Of a stretch of 64,000 bases of DNA, positions 7,682 to 63,944 are shown piece after piece; position 1 is the first letter of the stretch; each line of letters opens with the position of its first letter. Position numbers and translations under genes: made by a program. The stretch is taken from the NCBI GenBank assembly GCA_021608145.1, contig JAKIHM010000003.1, positions 62,001 through 126,000 on the forward strand, in the 5' to 3' direction. Source of the DNA: Thermovorax subterraneus (GTDB taxonomy: Bacteria; Bacillota; Thermosediminibacteria; Thermosediminibacterales; Thermosediminibacteraceae). The notes beneath the pieces were generated by a model. That model searched no databases. It was not told the DNA's origin and saw only the letters and a list, made by a program, of their open reading frames with translations.

Positions 7682-7922
7682 AAAAAAAAATCGCCCCCGA
7701 TACGTTTAACGTATCAGGGGCGAGGTTTTCCTCGCGTTACCACCCTGCTTTACCCGAAATTCTCTATTTCGGGCCTCATTTTTTAACGCTCTAAAGCGGC
7801 TCCGAGCTACTTTAAATTTTCACCCGGGCTGTTCAGGAGCGAGAAAGAACGCTAGCTCGGTACCGGCTCTCACCTTCCCCGGCTCTCTTTGACCGGCCAG
7901 CCGTCCTGCTCTCCTTCATCAC
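7682..7922 (-). promoter_or_regulatory. T-box riboswitch, Leu (CUC) specifier, ahead of ilvBNC-leuA
   Basis: The minus strand shows Stem I with AGAGAGCCGGGGAAGGTGAG, the T-box GGGTGGTAACGCG (7733-7745) and a long terminator hairpin (7691-7723) followed by a run of T. GGAG/CTCC and GGAC/GTTC plus GCTGGC/GCTAGC helices enclose a loop with AGCA opposite TTTCTCG. By analogy with the other T-box here, CTC (7841-7843) sits in the specifier position and is followed by a purine. It should read tRNA-Leu, matching an operon that ends in leuA. Confidence 0.9.
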
Positions 7923-7949
7923 AATTGACTATTTTATATTTTGAGCGTT

Positions 7950-16335: not shown

Positions 16336-16362
16336 GCCTGCATCGAAAATGCAGGCTTTTTC
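16335..16362 (+). terminator. Terminator of niaX
   Basis: AGCCTGCAT/ATGCAGGCT perfect hairpin followed by TTTTTCT; its end abuts the stop of the convergent iadA remnant. Confidence 0.9.
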
Positions 16363-16967
16363 TATTGCCAGGCTTCAAAGGTCCCGAAAACCTCCGTCTT
16401 CCCATCCCTTACCATCCATTTGCCTTTTGCCAAGACGCCCTTTACGTTCAAGTTTTCGTCCATGACAACCAAGTCCGCATCGTATCCTTCTTTTATTGCC
16501 CCTTTGCCCTCCAGGCGGTGTATCTTTGCAGGATTCTTCGTTACCGTCAAAAGGGCCGTATCGAGGGGGATGTCGTAGCGCAATACCATGGCCTTCAAAC
16601 TATCAAGGAGCGATGAAACCCTGCCAATCCCCAATCCCACCAGTCTTTTTTTCGAATCGAAAACGGGCATGCTACCGTTGCCGTCAGAACTTATAGTTAT
16701 GTTTTCGATGGGAGCGCCGGCTTTCAACGCCTCGTAAACGGCCCGAGCCGCTGTAATCGCAGAATCCTCGTTTTTATCCTCTCCCGCTGTATAGTCGCAG
16801 TAACCGCCGGCTTTTGCAAACTCGATGGATTCCTCGAAAAGCCTGCGGCATCGATTTAGGTGGGTGGGCTGAAATTGCGAAAGGGGAACGTCGGTGAGGT
16901 TTGATGCGCGAAAGAGGACCTTAAGCCCCATCGGGCCGTCCCCCACATGCAGGTGCACCTTGCCTGG
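16362..16967 (-). pseudogene. iadA: Isoaspartyl dipeptidase, 3' half only
   Basis: The reading PGKVHLHVGDGPMG... to ...FGTFEAWQ matches the C-terminal half of IadA, a zinc amidohydrolase that cleaves beta-aspartyl dipeptides. HLHVGDG holds metal-binding residues, SSDGNGSMP is the catalytic Asp region and DADLVVMDENLNVKGVLAKGKWMVRDGK is the usual C-terminal beta sandwich. Only about 200 of some 390 residues remain. The 5' half is missing: upstream sequence is the right end of an IS607-type element from about 16965, with an in-frame TGA four codons before the first GTG. No 5' fragment is found on the other side of the element, so a deletion accompanied or followed the insertion. Confidence 0.88.
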
Positions 16968-17110
16968 TCATCCAAACTGTGCAAAACCGCACCAGTTTAG
17001 ACGGCTGGGCTATTTATAGTCCGCCCTTTCAGAGAGTGCTCATTCCCAGCAGGCGGTATTTAAGCACTCTCATAGCCCCTGCCCCAAGAAGCAGGAACTC
17101 GCGCACTTAT
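16965..17110 (-). ncRNA. Predicted omega (re)RNA scaffold of TnpB copy 1
   Basis: Downstream of the tnpB stop, the minus-strand RNA would contain a CCTGC/GCAGG hairpin, a 9-bp stem GAGAGTGCT (17063-17071) / AGCACTCTC (17032-17040), and CCGCC (17052-17056, in that stem's loop) able to pair with GGCGG (17021-17025) as a pseudoknot. A last hairpin lies near the element end. The tail is largely conserved in copy 2, with the 9-bp stem kept through an A-U to G-U change. The guide would begin at about 16964, reading into iadA. The 5' end probably lies inside tnpB. Confidence 0.7.
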
Positions 17111-18660
17111 CCGGGTCTCCCCACTTGCCCTGTCTGTAATACTCCCTTCAGGACAGAGACATCCCTTAATACCCTCTCAGGGGAGAGTGGCGTTACCACC
17201 GCTACCTTGAGAACTCGCCAGAGGTTGTAGCTTTCGCTATAGGCACTAATACTTGTTCCATCCAGAGGTATTAGTGCCTTCCCAGGCTCACTCCCAAGGC
17301 TTTTTATCAGTTTTATTGCTTCGTCTATCTCTTTTAGTTGCCTTTTCTTTAGTTGTTTGCTTCTAACCGTCCTCTTTACGTGCTCTTTTAATTCTTCCAA
17401 TTCGTCAGCATCTAAATCTTTTAGAATTGCCATATATCCTTCGGGAATTTGCTCTTTTAACCCAAGTCCTCTTCTTGCTATGACATACGCTGCTGCTACG
17501 TCCTTGCTTATCATATACTGCGGTGCATATTTCAGCATCCCTATCACTGATGTGTAGGCGGGATTGACCTCTATGACTTGTATACCCTTCCTCTTCGCTA
17601 ATACCTTTATTTTTTCCAACAGCGACCTGTAGCTAAAGCTGTGCCTTATCCTCCTCGATTTCCTCCCTGAAAAGTCTCCTCTTTTTCCTTTGTCTCTTAT
17701 GTCTAATCTTTCGATTGCTATCGCCTTTTTCTTTTCTTCTGCTAGCCTTACTACTTCGTGGGCATACTGCCATCTGTAATATTCCCTCTTATTTGAATTG
17801 CCACTTATAAGTTTGGGCATCGGAATTTTGCCGTGTCCTGCTAATTGTCCTTTCTCATCTGTTTCTGACCATGCTATATGGTCCGGGTATGCGTTGATGT
17901 CTATGCCTATAACCCCATTTTCCTTTGTTATCCCAACTTCCGGGAAGTTTTCTTCAATCGTAAAGTAAGCATATACCTTGCCGTTTTTGAGCTTTAGCTC
18001 TACAGAATAAGGCTGTCCAAAAGTGCTGATTGCTTCCAGTAATTCCTCACGGCTCTTTTCTTTCTTCCATCCCGCTTGTATCCTTGCATATGCATATTTT
18101 CTTTCACCTACGTTGATTCTAAGTACAGCACCATTTTCATCTATCTCGATCCTTGTGTTGAGATTCCCTTTCTTGCTCTTGTCTCCTCTGGAATAAAGAT
18201 TGCCCTTTCTTTTTTCTTGCCACTCATGTTGCAGCTTCTTATATGCATTTCCATTTATGTGCCGCTTCTTGAGCTTCTCAAACAAACTCCTGCCACCGAA
18301 AATAACCTTGCTTGGATTTTCGCCTCTTTCTTTGCATGACTCAAGAACGCTTTTTGCCTTAATTATCGCATCGTCTACATACCTCGAATTTAAATTGAAA
18401 ATCCCCTGCAGTTCTCTTTTGAGTTCATTTCTGCTATATCCTTCTAAAAGCCTGTTATATGCAAATCTCATGCAGGATGTCCATCTTCTCATAAGGTCTA
18501 ATACTTTCTGCTTATCTTCGTTGCTGTTAAAAATCAGCTTTGCCTGAATTGTTACCATGCCTTTTCGCACCTCATTGTCCGTTACTACCGCTACAAGGTC
18601 TCTTGCTAATGCCGTATATATGTTTTCTTTTTTTGCACACTTAATAATGTCAATTATCAT
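17107..18660 (-). CDS. tnpB: TnpB RNA-guided nuclease, fused to a tnpA remnant
   Basis: IS607-associated TnpB, 517 aa in this reading. The TnpB part begins at Met35 (MVTIQAKL, codon at 18558). RuvC-type catalytic residues are present: Asp254 in IGIDINAYPDHIAW, Glu317 in AIAIERLDI and Asp387 in ISKDVAAAYVIARRG. The CxxC zinc-finger pair usual between the last two motifs is absent, replaced by NPAYTSVIGMLKYAPQYM, as in one TnpB subgroup. Residues 1-34 include ALARDLVAVVT, which matches the TnpA C-terminal ELAEDLIAIVT of copy 2, so tnpA has been reduced to about 34 codons joined in frame. The protein lies between the left end and the omega RNA tail. Nuclease activity is inferred from motifs. Confidence 0.88.
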   Translation of the reverse strand: MIIDIIKCAKKENIYTALARDLVAVVTDNEVRKGMVTIQAKLIFNSNEDKQKVLDLMRRWTSCMRFAYNRLLEGYSRNELKRELQGIFNLNSRYVDDAIIKAKSVLESCKERGENPSKVIFGGRSLFEKLKKRHINGNAYKKLQHEWQEKRKGNLYSRGDKSKKGNLNTRIEIDENGAVLRINVGERKYAYARIQAGWKKEKSREELLEAISTFGQPYSVELKLKNGKVYAYFTIEENFPEVGITKENGVIGIDINAYPDHIAWSETDEKGQLAGHGKIPMPKLISGNSNKREYYRWQYAHEVVRLAEEKKKAIAIERLDIRDKGKRGDFSGRKSRRIRHSFSYRSLLEKIKVLAKRKGIQVIEVNPAYTSVIGMLKYAPQYMISKDVAAAYVIARRGLGLKEQIPEGYMAILKDLDADELEELKEHVKRTVRSKQLKKRQLKEIDEAIKLIKSLGSEPGKALIPLDGTSISAYSESYNLWRVLKVAVVTPLSPERVLRDVSVLKGVLQTGQVGRPG

Positions 18661-18694
18661 CTAATCGAAATTATACCCTTTTGCATTACTATCT

Positions 18695-20344
18695 TCAACT
18701 GTTGTGGCCCTCCAGCAACAATCTTACGGTCTTTTCCACAATTTCTGGCACCACTTCAAAAGAATAGGGGATGTTAACCCTCTCCGTAAACTTGTGGGCA
18801 TCCTTTCCGTAAGGGCCAATGTTTACCACCGGAACATCTAATTTTCTTATACACTCAACGGGAAGTGAGTAAATCTCGCCCCATCCTGGCATGTTATCAG
18901 TAAGGGCCTCAACAGCATTTTCTTCAGGTATCGAAAAATAGCTCAAATCCGAAATGTAGGGATAAAATTTTTTTATTTCGAATTTATACGGAAAGCGGGC
19001 CGCCGCTTCGGCAACAGCTGAATTTACCGCCGTGATGAGATTTTTTTCCTTTTCGTTCTGGCCTTTTACGTATATGTGGGGGTAATACGGCGGAGCAAAA
19101 AACAGGACCACAGCAGGATTCTTGTTAGACCACTGCCTAGAAAGTTCCCTCACTATCTGGAGGCAGTAAATTCGATCATCGAGTTTTTGCTCCATAAGTT
19201 TTTCTTTAAAATTCCTTAAATGCTCCTTAATTTTCCCATCTGTCTCTCTTTTAACCTCATCGTAAAGTTCTTTAAACGTCAATACCTGAGGTTTCCAAGG
19301 CAGTTTTTTATAAGGAATGCCGGAGGCCTGACAATAGCGCATATAATCGTCGTTGAGTTTTTTTAGCACGTTTTCGAAGGCCTTTTGTGCCTTGGCTTTA
19401 AGTTTTTCAAGAACCTCATCAGGCTTGCTGCTATGGGTCGAGTAATTGAAGTAGAGGTATGCTTCGTTTACGGTTTGAACGGAATACTCTGACTTTAAAT
19501 CCCTCTGCCCCAGGCTTATGGGAGGTGTCGACGCCTCGCCTTCGACCACGTCGCACAGGTCAAAGGCAAGATCCACCTCCTTTAAAATTTCCGAAGCCAG
19601 GAGGTTTGCGTCCAAACCTTCAAAAGCCTGCCCCACGTGGGTCTCCTTGCCGCAGATGTAAAAGCAGGGTAGTATCTTCCCCACCGTCCCTATATAGATG
19701 TATTTCTTATCATCGCCAGGAAAGCGGGGCGCCATATAATCGGTATCTATAGCCGCTACGTATTCTAAATTGTGAGTTTCTGCAAGGCGCACCAGGTCTT
19801 CTGCCGCTGAAAGCATACCTTTGGAATTTCCCTCTTCGTCTGGCACTGCAAGGAAGAGGATATTCCCTTCAATCTCGCTTATTTTTTCCGAAAAATACTT
19901 TATCAATGCCATACTTATGGCAACCCCTGACTTCATATCAAATATTCCTCGTCCGAACAGCCAATTTCCGCTTTCCAAGTCTTTTGACGTATCTTCATCG
20001 AGCTCTTTAGTTCTTAAGAGGTCTTTTAGTTTTTCCGGGTAAGTAGCATATTCTTTTATATTTCCATAATCTTCTATCCCCACAGTGTCTATATGTCCTA
20101 TTAAAACAACGGTTTTCCTTGAATTTCCCTTTTGCCCCTTTAGCAAGGCTAAAACGTTTTTCCTGTTCAAAACGTCACCTTTTAGGTTAGAAAGCAAAAG
20201 GTAATTAGGGTGTTCTTTGTAGTAATCCAGCGTTTTGAAAAAATCGTAAATCCATCTTGCTATTTCGACTTCACCTTCGCTTTCAACCACGCTTTTTATT
20301 CTAGTCAGCTGTAAAGCTAAATTCAAAATAAATTCTTTTTCCAA
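18695..20344 (-). CDS. rocB: M20-family peptidase, RocB-like
   Basis: 549-aa M20/M25/M40 metallopeptidase of the RocB type, linked in Bacillus to arginine use; the actual substrate is unknown. Motifs: VVLIGHIDTVGI (metal His/Asp), WLFGRGIFDMKSGVA (bridging Asp), LAVPDEEGNSKGM (catalytic Glu-Glu) and a late metal region GPYGKDAHKFTERVN. It starts at TTG 20344 behind GGAGGG. The last residues HNS and the TGA stop are supplied by the left end of the IS607-type element, so the native C-terminus has been replaced, though the domain looks complete. A sigma-54 activator gene is divergent from it. Confidence 0.88.
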   Translation of the reverse strand: MEKEFILNLALQLTRIKSVVESEGEVEIARWIYDFFKTLDYYKEHPNYLLLSNLKGDVLNRKNVLALLKGQKGNSRKTVVLIGHIDTVGIEDYGNIKEYATYPEKLKDLLRTKELDEDTSKDLESGNWLFGRGIFDMKSGVAISMALIKYFSEKISEIEGNILFLAVPDEEGNSKGMLSAAEDLVRLAETHNLEYVAAIDTDYMAPRFPGDDKKYIYIGTVGKILPCFYICGKETHVGQAFEGLDANLLASEILKEVDLAFDLCDVVEGEASTPPISLGQRDLKSEYSVQTVNEAYLYFNYSTHSSKPDEVLEKLKAKAQKAFENVLKKLNDDYMRYCQASGIPYKKLPWKPQVLTFKELYDEVKRETDGKIKEHLRNFKEKLMEQKLDDRIYCLQIVRELSRQWSNKNPAVVLFFAPPYYPHIYVKGQNEKEKNLITAVNSAVAEAAARFPYKFEIKKFYPYISDLSYFSIPEENAVEALTDNMPGWGEIYSLPVECIRKLDVPVVNIGPYGKDAHKFTERVNIPYSFEVVPEIVEKTVRLLLEGHNS

Positions 20345-24014: not shown

Positions 24015-24033
24015 TGTTGTGAAACTGAAAATA

Positions 24034-24200
24034 TGCGCCTTCAAGGTGCCCTTTTTGGGGGAGAATAGGGAAGTCCGGTGAAAGTCCGGCGCGGACCCGC
24101 CACTGTAACGGGAAGCCGCCTTAAAAAAGGCCACTGGGGAACCGGGAAGGCATAAGGCGGCGATGAACCGGAGCCAGGAGACCTGCCTTGCAAGGTAGCA
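24034..24200 (+). promoter_or_regulatory. Cobalamin (B12) riboswitch
   Basis: Contains GGGAAGTCCGGTGAAAGTCC, CCGCCACTGTAACGGGAAG and the B12 box GAGCCAGGAGACCTGCC, all in the order expected for an adenosylcobalamin aptamer. It controls the cblT-cblS pair through the terminator that follows. Bound cobalamin should turn uptake off. Confidence 0.95.
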
Positions 24201-24217
24201 GTCCGGGGATGATGGCA

Positions 24218-48384: not shown

Positions 48385-48535
48385 CCTCCTTTCAACATTA
48401 AAGCCCCTGCTGTGAGGCAGCAGGGGTTTCCTTATTTAAAAAGCCTTCCTCTGTCAGGCAGAGAAAGGCTTTTTTTCTTCCCTTACGCCTTACTAGCCTC
48501 ACAGGACCAGTTTAAAGGCTTGCCTATTAACTTTC
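48385..48535 (-). promoter_or_regulatory. PyrR-type attenuator leader of the uracil permease
   Basis: Minus strand CTGGTCCTGTGAGGCTAGTAAGG resembles the PyrR-binding loop (GTCC...GAGGCTNGNAAGG). It is followed by a strong terminator AAAGCCTTTCTCTG / CAGAGGAAGGCTTTTT (48439-48477) and then a second hairpin CCCCTGCTG / CAGCAGGGG (48404-48426) before the RBS. UMP-bound PyrR should favour termination. Confidence 0.8.
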
Positions 48536-62102: not shown

Positions 62103-62111
62103 ATTGCCCCC

Positions 62112-62240
62112 TGGTTACCCAAACTGTTTGAGCAGCTGGGCTATTTATAGTCCGCCCTTTCAGAGAGTGCTCATTCCCAGCAGGCGGTTTTTAAGCACTC
62201 CCTTAGCCCCTGCCCCAAGAAGCAGGAACTCGCGCCCTTA
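62112..62240 (-). ncRNA. Predicted omega (re)RNA scaffold of TnpB copy 2
   Basis: Matches the copy 1 tail: 9-bp stem GGGAGTGCT (62194-62202) / AGCACTCTC (62163-62171) with one G-U pair where copy 1 has A-U, and CCGCC (62183-62187) able to pair with GGCGG (62152-62156). The 3' hairpin region differs and is shorter. The guide would begin at about 62111 and read GGGCAATATGATGAATTT, the RBS and start of the acetyltransferase gene. Confidence 0.7.
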
Positions 62241-63692
62241 CCCGGGTCTCCCCACTTGCCCTGTATGCAATACTCGCTTCAGGACAGAGACGTCTCTTAA
62301 GACTTTCTCAGGGGAGAGTGGCGTTACCACCGCTACTTTGAGAACTCGCCAGAGATTATAGCTTTCGCTATAGGCACTAAGACTTGTTCCATCCAGAGGT
62401 CTTGGTACCCTCCCTGGCTCACTCCCAAGGCTTTGTAATAGTCTTATTGCCTTTTCTATCTCCTTTAGTTGCCTTTTCTTTAGGTGTTTATTATTGACCG
62501 TTTTCTTTACGTGCTCTTTTAATTCCTCCAGTTCGTCAGCATCTAAATCTTTTAGAATTGCCATATATCCTTCGGGAATTTGCTCTTTTAACCCAAGTCC
62601 TCTTCTTGCTATGACATACGCTGCTGCCACGTCCTTGCTTATCATATGCTGCGGGGCATATTTCAGCATCCCTATCACTGATGTGTAGGCGGGATTGACC
62701 TCTACAATTTGTATGCCCTTCCTCTTTGCTAAAATCTTGATTTTCTCTATGAGCGACCTGTAGCTAAAGCTGTGCCTTATCCTCCTCGATTTCCTCCCCG
62801 AAAAGTCCCCTCTTTTTCCTTTGTCTTTTATGTCTAATCTTTCGATTGCTATCGCTTTCTTCTTTTCTTCTGCCAGCTTTACTATCTCATGGGCATACTG
62901 CCATCTGTAATATTTCCTCTTGTTTGAATTGCCGTTTGCAAGTTCAGGCATCGGTATCTTGCCGTAACTTGCAAGGTTGCCGTTTTCATCGGTTTCCGAC
63001 CACGCTATGTGGTCCGGATATGCGTTGATGTCTATTCCTATGGTCCCATTTTCCTTTGTTATCTCGACTTCCGGGAAGTTTTCTTCAATTGTGAAGTAAG
63101 CATATACCTTGCCGTTTTTTAGTTTTAGCTCGACGGAATAGGCTTCCTGACAGGTGCTTATTGCTTCAAGTAATTCTTCACGGGTTTTTCCTTTTTTACA
63201 TCCTGCTTGTATTGTAGGATATACATACTCTCTTTCTCCTACATTTATCCTCAATCTTGTACTGCCGTATTCATCTATCTCGATTCTCGTGTTGAGGTTC
63301 CCTTTCTTGGTCTTATCTCCTCTTGAGTAGAGATTGCCTTTCCTTCTTTCTTGCCATTCTTGCTTCCGCTTTTCATATTCATTCCCATTTATGTGCCGTT
63401 TCTTGAGCTTTTCATATAAATTCCTGCCACCGAAAATAACCTTGCTCGGATTTTCTTCTCTTTCTTTGCATGACTCAAGAATGCTTTTCGCCTTCATTAT
63501 CGCATCATCTACATACCTTGAATTTAAATTGAAAATCCCTTGCAGTTCTCTTTTGAGTTCATTTCTGCTATATCCTTCTAAAAGCCTGTTGTATGCAAAT
63601 CTCATACAGGATGACCATCTCCTCATCACATCCGCTACTGCTTGTTCATCTTCCTTGCTTTGAAAACCAAGTTTAGCCTGTATTGTTATCAC
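62238..63692 (-). CDS. tnpB: TnpB RNA-guided nuclease, copy 2
   Basis: 484-aa TnpB, very similar to copy 1. RuvC residues are Asp221 (GIDINAYPDHIAW), Glu in AIAIERLDIKDKG and Asp in MISKDVAAAYVIARRG. Like copy 1 it lacks the CxxC zinc ribbon. It starts at GTG 63692 overlapping the tnpA remnant's stop (GTGA), the usual coupling of IS607 orfs. Confidence 0.9.
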   Translation of the reverse strand: MITIQAKLGFQSKEDEQAVADVMRRWSSCMRFAYNRLLEGYSRNELKRELQGIFNLNSRYVDDAIMKAKSILESCKEREENPSKVIFGGRNLYEKLKKRHINGNEYEKRKQEWQERRKGNLYSRGDKTKKGNLNTRIEIDEYGSTRLRINVGEREYVYPTIQAGCKKGKTREELLEAISTCQEAYSVELKLKNGKVYAYFTIEENFPEVEITKENGTIGIDINAYPDHIAWSETDENGNLASYGKIPMPELANGNSNKRKYYRWQYAHEIVKLAEEKKKAIAIERLDIKDKGKRGDFSGRKSRRIRHSFSYRSLIEKIKILAKRKGIQIVEVNPAYTSVIGMLKYAPQHMISKDVAAAYVIARRGLGLKEQIPEGYMAILKDLDADELEELKEHVKKTVNNKHLKKRQLKEIEKAIRLLQSLGSEPGRVPRPLDGTSLSAYSESYNLWRVLKVAVVTPLSPEKVLRDVSVLKRVLHTGQVGRPG

Positions 63693-63944
63693 GCTTTATT
63701 TTCACCTCTTTGCCCGTAAATCCTGGCTGCAAATGATGTAACTATAGCTATTAAATCCTCTGCTAACTCTTTGTTTACATCTTGTTCATTTTCTTTCCCA
63801 TTTAAAACTATAAGTTCTACTCCAAAACTTTCCATTCCCTGTTGGTGTCCTAATTGGAGTTATTAACCCTTCCTTTTCCCAGTTTATCAATGTACTTCTG
63901 CTGATGTTGTATGTTTCTTTAACTTTTTGTATGCTCAACAACAT
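63690..63944 (-). pseudogene. tnpA: IS607 tnpA remnant with internal deletion
   Basis: The 5' part from ATG 63944 reads MLLSIQKVKETYNISRSTL, then INWEKEGLITPIRTPTGNGK, a MerR-like HTH that starts IS607 serine recombinases. After the junction near 63824 the frame shifts and FGVELIVLNGKENEQ, then NKELAEDLIAIVTSFAARI and YGQRGENKA, appear: the recombinase C-terminus. The catalytic serine domain in between is missing. Confidence 0.85.

Follow-up and report, generated by a model that had tools for sequence, protein, structure and literature searches.

Structured tail RNA of an IS607-family TnpB element in Thermovorax subterraneus: a very likely guide scaffold with a plausible second role in mRNA leaders

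We analyzed a stretch of 64,000 nucleotides (nt) from Thermovorax subterraneus (assembly GCA_021608145.1, contig JAKIHM010000003.1, positions 62,001 to 126,000), referred to here as the window, which contains a transposable element with a tnpB gene and, behind that gene, a structured RNA that is the subject of this report. All features of the element lie on the minus strand. The left flank is a rocB-like M20 peptidase gene (18695-20344, an open reading frame (ORF) with a match to the ArgE/DapE family), whose TGA stop codon falls inside the left end of the element (18660-18708, GCCACAACAGTTGAAGATAG..., delimited by comparison of 27 distinct left ends). Beside this end stands GGAGG (18709-18713), the target site and presumed target-adjacent motif (TAM), which is the Shine-Dalgarno sequence of iadA in the empty site, and within the end a candidate sigma-70-like promoter can be discerned by eye only (TTGAAG, 18698-18693; TATAAT, 18675-18670). 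A remnant of tnpA, the gene of the IS607 serine transposase (18559-18660), is followed by tnpB, the gene of a RuvC nuclease (17107-18558; the listed ORF, 17107-18660, takes in both), and then by the tail (17107-16963), in which the RNA (~17095-16963) reaches as far as CCAGG (16967-16963), the element's right end, where similarity between copies stops. Beyond it lie the presumed guide, CAAGGTGCACCTGCATGTGG (16943-16962), made of iadA codons and positioned by reference to the 20-nt guide of published IS607 right-end RNAs (reRNAs, PMC11061315), and an iadA remnant (16362-16958) comprising only the C-terminal half (TIGR01975 positions 194-389 of 389).

The window holds a second copy, also on the minus strand, in which tnpB (62241-63704; G000:C33:124241-125704, G000 being the genome of the window) is interrupted by two in-frame stops (TGA, TAA) and the tail (about 62240-62110) contains an RNA (62110-62211) with a shortened P3 loop, behind which an acetyltransferase-like ORF begins. 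The two tails belong to a 300-nt direct repeat of ~90% identity. A preliminary description of this DNA had reported a stem kept in both tails with an A-U to G-U change, a CCGCC/GGCGG pseudoknot in both, and a shared element-end sequence; we find the stem (GAGAGTGCTT versus GGGAGTGCTT in copy 2), the pseudoknot (PK1, CCGCC 17056-17052 with GGCGG 17025-17021) and the common CCAGG end, together with three elements that the description had missed, namely a second pseudoknot, a 5′ hairpin (P0) and a terminal hairpin (P3). The complete fold begins with P0 (CCTGC-TTCTTGGG-GCAGG, 17078-17095), continues with the stem P1 (GAGAGTGCTT at 17071-17062 with GAGCACTCTC at 17041-17032), which encloses the conserved loop AAATACCGCCTGCTGGGAAT, and ends with P3 (GTCTAAACT at 17002-16994 with AGTTTGGAT at 16978-16970); besides PK1, it includes pseudoknot 2 (PK2, GCTGGG 17050-17045 with CCCAGC 17009-17004).

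Our alignment of 80 related RNAs supports P1, PK1, PK2 and P3, and covariation, whose absence from a larger alignment was to have counted against the guide RNA idea, is clearly present. Across these RNAs 94.8% of cells are paired, compared with 27-54% when the partners are slid, and the covariation score of 0.299 exceeds that of shuffled alignments (0.156 +/- 0.006), none of 500 shuffles reaching it. Both sides have changed in 15 of 29 pairs, including seven of the eight counted pairs of P1 and six of the nine of P3 (95.9% paired). PK2 is paired in 91.9% of cells and shows double changes at three pairs in copies that stand without transposon genes (solo copies, described below), and PK1 is paired in 98.0% and is nearly invariant, so that it rests on conservation and not on covariation. 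P0 occurs as CCTGC/GCAGG in 46 copies and as CCTGT/ACAGG in nine. In all, the fold of the tail RNA comprises two pseudoknots and three stems that show covariation, P0, P1 and P3.

Searching with the tail DNA returned ~75 matches spread over five genomes of the genus; the genome of the window accounts for 19. Relatives of the TnpB protein were found in Fervidicola, Caldanaerobacter, Thermoanaerobacter, Caldisericum and Thermodesulfobacterium, and the tails behind tnpB retain the fold down to 62% TnpB identity (Thermodesulfobacterium). No fitting Rfam family was found for the RNAs of the window and 19 other loci at gathering or relaxed thresholds; a cmscan search with all 4227 Rfam families at E-values up to 5 returned a single unrelated weak match. 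RF02686, tried as a possible identity, is RAGATH-6 and gives no match.

The class of the element can be read from a related copy (L083), in which an intact tnpA of 197 amino acids (aa) precedes tnpB; its product matches NF033518 (E 1.5e-68), PF00239 (resolvase) and PF00376 (MerR-like helix-turn-helix, at the N terminus). By comparison with this copy, the tnpA of the window is internally deleted. A GG dinucleotide, the IS607 overlap dinucleotide (PMC4058570), is present at both ends (GGAGG left, CCAGG right) and at the empty site (L273, in G002), and the GG in CCAGG is presumed to be the crossover dinucleotide by analogy. On these sequence grounds we assign the element to the IS607 family, with a serine-recombinase TnpA and a TnpB, and not to IS605. 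TnpB itself matches TIGR01765 (E 4.6e-25), both this profile and TIGR01766 being above cut-off, and its RuvC triad, D218/E281/D351 (A4 numbering), is invariant in an alignment of 10 family members; the Pfam TNB match covers just 28 of 60 positions. An AlphaFold model of low confidence, built on a shallow alignment of 10 sequences (predicted local distance difference test score, pLDDT, 60) and used for support only, gives eight matches at E ≤ 0.001, headed by Cas12f chains and including Fanzor2. The sole sequence match to a solved structure proved to be a chance match to a cytochrome fusion. A second TnpB-like family of 563 aa in the same genome (G000: C11:157283, C11:274257, C42:1852, C19:30861, C10:440; L011-L024) was rejected as owner of the RNA, with no copy having a tail-RNA (R1) match directly behind it.

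Comparison of insertion sites points to ribosome-binding sites as the usual target. Of 27 distinct flanks, 22 have GGAG directly before the left end (background 4.4%), and a start codon with a long ORF follows the right end within 3-16 nt, mostly 6-9 nt, at 61 of 82 distinct junctions, against 13-17% with the same spacing at other CCAGG/AGG sites. Among the 21 junctions that do not fit, several still look like the beginnings of genes, either short ones or selD, whose frame contains a TGA. Judged from these flanks, the element is usually located between a Shine-Dalgarno sequence and its start codon, with CCAGG as the predicted substitute. For IS607 TnpBs, AGGAG or GAGGG TAMs and an reRNA outside the coding sequence (CDS) have been shown experimentally (PMC11061315). 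In two species (L002, L037, L116), the element is also seen between the end of a KhpA-like gene and rimM, exactly at the AGGAGG of rimM.

The rocB/iadA locus was recovered in three states: empty in G002 (Fervidicola ferrireducens), filled in G000 and G004, and with the RNA only in G003. The empty site reads CTGGAGGGATAAAAGTG, the end of rocB overlapping the iadA Shine-Dalgarno sequence, and the filled site reads CTGGAGG/GCCACAACAGTTG in G000 and G004, where the rocB-element junction (L275 in G004) is that of the window. At this one natural empty site found, the target consists of the TAM and the right flank. On the simplest reading, one insertion gave rise to both the G003 RNA and the G000 copy.

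The preliminary description proposed differing guides, iadA here and the start of an acetyltransferase in copy 2, and the two 3′ flanks do differ in this way; as a correction to that description, iadA in the window is an N-terminally truncated remnant. The truncation falls exactly at the right end of the element, so that the right flank begins at about iadA codon 190 instead of the iadA start. The N-terminal half is present in G003 (L212), where the same codons read GGGCGG/GAAGGTGCACC, a GGNGG-like site. Because iadA is present only as a remnant, the left and right flanks of the window copy probably stem from two insertions; in the simplest account, iadA itself would have been hit by a second insertion, and recombination of the two direct copies would then have removed the gene's first half. 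If so, the presumed guide would derive from the second insertion.

Many related RNAs stand without transposon genes. Among the 19 RNAs of the window's own genome, six lie beside tnpB, three at contig ends and ten without a nearby TnpB of this family. A covariance search recovered the RNA in all nine genomes of the family, in none of 17 others of the class and in 21 of 398 of the phylum. Four genomes with RNAs (G003, G023, G024 and G025) have no TnpB of this RNA's family; TIGR01766 finds no TnpB in G003, G023 and G024 and one unrelated 341-aa protein in G025, and no recognisable IS607 TnpA is present in any of the four, the only match in G024 lying inside a 656-aa ORF. G024 is a single contig, 99% complete; G003 is 81% complete, and the absence of TnpB from it is therefore weaker evidence.

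Solo RNAs recur at orthologous places. One precedes a threonine aldolase gene at an orthologous site in five species, and others precede a LigB/Memo-domain gene (eight genomes, four genera; L186, L188, L191-L195, L183), yjbQ (four), an amidase gene (four), a histidine phosphatase gene (three) and, behind the end of a sugar-kinase-like gene, a gene for a glycoside hydrolase family 2 (GH2) beta-galactosidase in seven Thermoanaerobacter genomes (L244-L250). These copies retain all elements but P0, and they keep pairing and core while the sequences of P1 and P3 have been replaced and the flanks have diverged: in the beta-galactosidase set P3 is rebuilt as a longer hairpin, and in one LigB/Memo copy (L191) P1 is wholly replaced and PK2 carries a U-A to C-G double change. 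Among LigB/Memo orthologues of 55-79% protein identity, RNA cores are 57-92% identical, compared with 15-49% for the 90 nt upstream. In an alignment of 42 solo RNAs, 90.6% of cells are paired versus 39-54% with slid partners, covariation is 0.294 versus 0.096, and in an alignment-free comparison the P1 helix beats shuffled arms at p ≤ 0.05 in 38 of the 42. The solo copies lie directly before a start codon, some of them just downstream of promoter-like sequences, and in many CCAGG has given way to a stronger Shine-Dalgarno sequence such as AAGGAGG.

Three further observations concern individual solo loci. The yjbQ locus of G022, which belongs to another genus (L182), is identical to that of G003 (L214), probably through cross-contamination of one metagenome assembly. 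A solo RNA also precedes a selD-like gene (G000:C33:56670-56785; L117, L199; L109) whose frame carries a TGA within the motif LTELTCSSG(U), which suggests that this TGA is a selenocysteine codon. At L128, a cyclic di-AMP riboswitch (692-857) on the opposite strand adjoins a solo RNA before a membrane-protein-like gene.

Taken together, covariation, position behind tnpB, the shared element end, a variable 3′ flank and the TAM-like GGAGG on the left bear out the proposal of the preliminary description that the tail is a TnpB guide RNA, and we consider it very probable that it is the omega RNA, or reRNA, of an IS607-family TnpB. In the mechanism we propose, TnpB would bind the scaffold of P0, P1, P3 and the double pseudoknot, the ~20 nt past the right end would serve as guide and the GGAGG beside the left end as TAM, and an excised or empty site, with its GGAGG and guide sequence, would be cut and refilled by copying. 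Since GGAGG is a Shine-Dalgarno sequence, insertions would fall between ribosome-binding site and start codon, and the RNA would thus become part of the mRNA leader, the CCAGG end giving the downstream gene a substitute Shine-Dalgarno sequence. Decay of tnpA and tnpB would then leave the RNA alone in place. At several loci the RNA seems to have stayed under selection, most probably as a structured 5′ leader. Because no terminator follows P3, such a leader is likelier to influence translation, at its start, or the stability of the mRNA than to act by attenuation. We favor, with reasonable though limited confidence, the broader view that guide scaffolds of TnpB transposons have repeatedly been exapted as mRNA leaders that control unrelated host genes after their protein partner was lost.

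Other origins for the conserved tail were considered. If the tail were only a DNA signal, a right end read by the serine transposase whose inverted repeats mimic RNA structure, one would expect P3 to lie at the element end and to resemble left-end motifs, as it does, and IS607 ends are known to bear repeats bound by TnpA (PMC4058570); such a signal would not account for P0, P1 and P3 covarying as RNA, G-U pairs included, for the maintenance of two pseudoknots, or for P3 rebuilt with other sequences in solo copies. RNA pairing is conserved even where the genome has no recognisable IS607 TnpA, so that this explanation is largely refuted and very improbable. If the RNA were in the first place a cis-regulatory leader (riboswitch-like or an attenuator) that a transposon picked up, and no guide, this would fit the orthologous solo copies found across genera directly before start codons, some behind promoter-like sequences. 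We regard this as unlikely, given that the RNA sits behind tnpB right at the element end and has travelled with the element into other phyla, and that rocB/iadA exists in empty, full and RNA-only states. A single-metabolite riboswitch was rejected since the downstream genes (threonine aldolase, YjbQ, amidase, LigB/Memo, histidine phosphatase, RadA, ComEC and GH2 beta-galactosidase) share no common pathway, and an intrinsic terminator or attenuator was rejected since no U-run follows P3.

The solo RNAs permit two further explanations besides exaptation as leaders. They could be working guides in trans for a TnpB encoded elsewhere, for example to repress or protect the downstream locus, and intact tnpB is indeed present in some genomes with solo RNAs. 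Solo RNAs persist, however, in the four genomes that lack a TnpB of this family, and the AAGGAGG-type Shine-Dalgarno sequence of several copies would, in a genome with active TnpB, put a TAM next to the DNA that encodes the guide and so expose it to self-cutting, which argues against solo guides; we give this role a low probability. Alternatively, they could be neutral, unselected remains of old insertions, consistent with their origin and with the visible decay of three copies (L197, L198 and L184); the excess identity of the LigB/Memo RNA cores over their upstream sequence and the compensating pair changes in P1 and P3 make this unlikely.

Several points weigh against the reading of the tail as a guide RNA and later leader. 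TnpB has no zinc ribbon (CxxC...CxxC), with no cysteine pairs at A4 residues 331-351, scores under the NF040570 cut-off (66.9 versus 100 bits), and a sequence search for a relative among solved TnpBs found none. In the window, tnpA is broken, its remains being fused to the tnpB reading frame, and the two flanks of the copy do not come from one insertion. The RNA lacks an Rfam match, also to RAGATH-18, provided that Rfam includes that family, as PMC11061315 implies, and covariation says little about the invariant PK1 helix. What the genomes show directly is the structure with its covariation, the element ends, the target motif, the three states of one locus, and solo copies at orthologous sites where this TnpB is absent; transcription, TnpB binding, cleavage and leader function are what we infer from them, and for solo copies the argument for a leader is one of conservation.

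Elsewhere in the window, Rfam searches identified a cobalamin riboswitch (24027-24204, plus strand), two T-box leaders (2599-2862 and 7713-7928, minus strand) and a PyrR binding site (48397-48522, minus strand).

TnpB guide RNAs, IS607 TAMs, exaptation of TnpB proteins and 3′ terminators of insertion sequences (IS) as 'mobile attenuators' (PMC2965389) are known already, and in the open-access literature that we searched we found no earlier description of omega RNAs standing alone as leaders. As far as searched, the novelty lies in the RNA family, in the interpretation of the TAM as a Shine-Dalgarno sequence for which the element carries a substitute, and in the solo scaffolds and their conservation. 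With them, the known guide-RNA scaffolds would gain one that Rfam does not contain, belonging to a family of IS607 TnpBs that lack the zinc ribbon; a TAM equal to the Shine-Dalgarno sequence would direct a transposon to ribosome-binding sites, which it replaces with its own end; and dozens of natural loci would illustrate how an RNA-guided system has seemingly left nothing but its RNA, as a gene leader.

The closest known systems are IS607 TnpBs with RAGATH-18-derived reRNAs, such as ISFba1 (Cell Res 2024, PMC11061315), which likewise combine an IS607 element and a RuvC TnpB with an reRNA outside the CDS that runs to the right end and with a purine-rich TAM (AGGAG or GAGGG there) beside the left end. 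The published reRNA is independent of the CDS and has three stem-loops and two pseudoknots (PMC11061315); the RNA described here also has stem-loops and two pseudoknots, and differs in that both pseudoknots cross P1 and in its lack of an Rfam match, and the TnpB, at ~480-490 aa and of the TIGR01765 type without zinc ribbon, differs from that of ISFba1 (387 aa). The omega RNA of IS200/IS605 elements (ISDra2, PMC8612924) shares the guide RNA at the right end, the RuvC nuclease and the identity of TAM and insertion motif, whereas the transposase here is a serine recombinase and RNA and TAM are unrelated. TldR proteins, nuclease-dead TnpB-like repressors (PMC13418256), are a parallel case of a TnpB system exapted for host gene control, although here the RNA survives and the protein disappears. 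Mobile attenuators (Naville and Gautheret 2010, PMC2965389), finally, are IS 3′ structures directly 5′ of cellular genes that have been proposed as exapted regulators; in contrast to those terminators, the structure described here is a probable TnpB guide scaffold, free of a terminator and conserved by covariation across genera.
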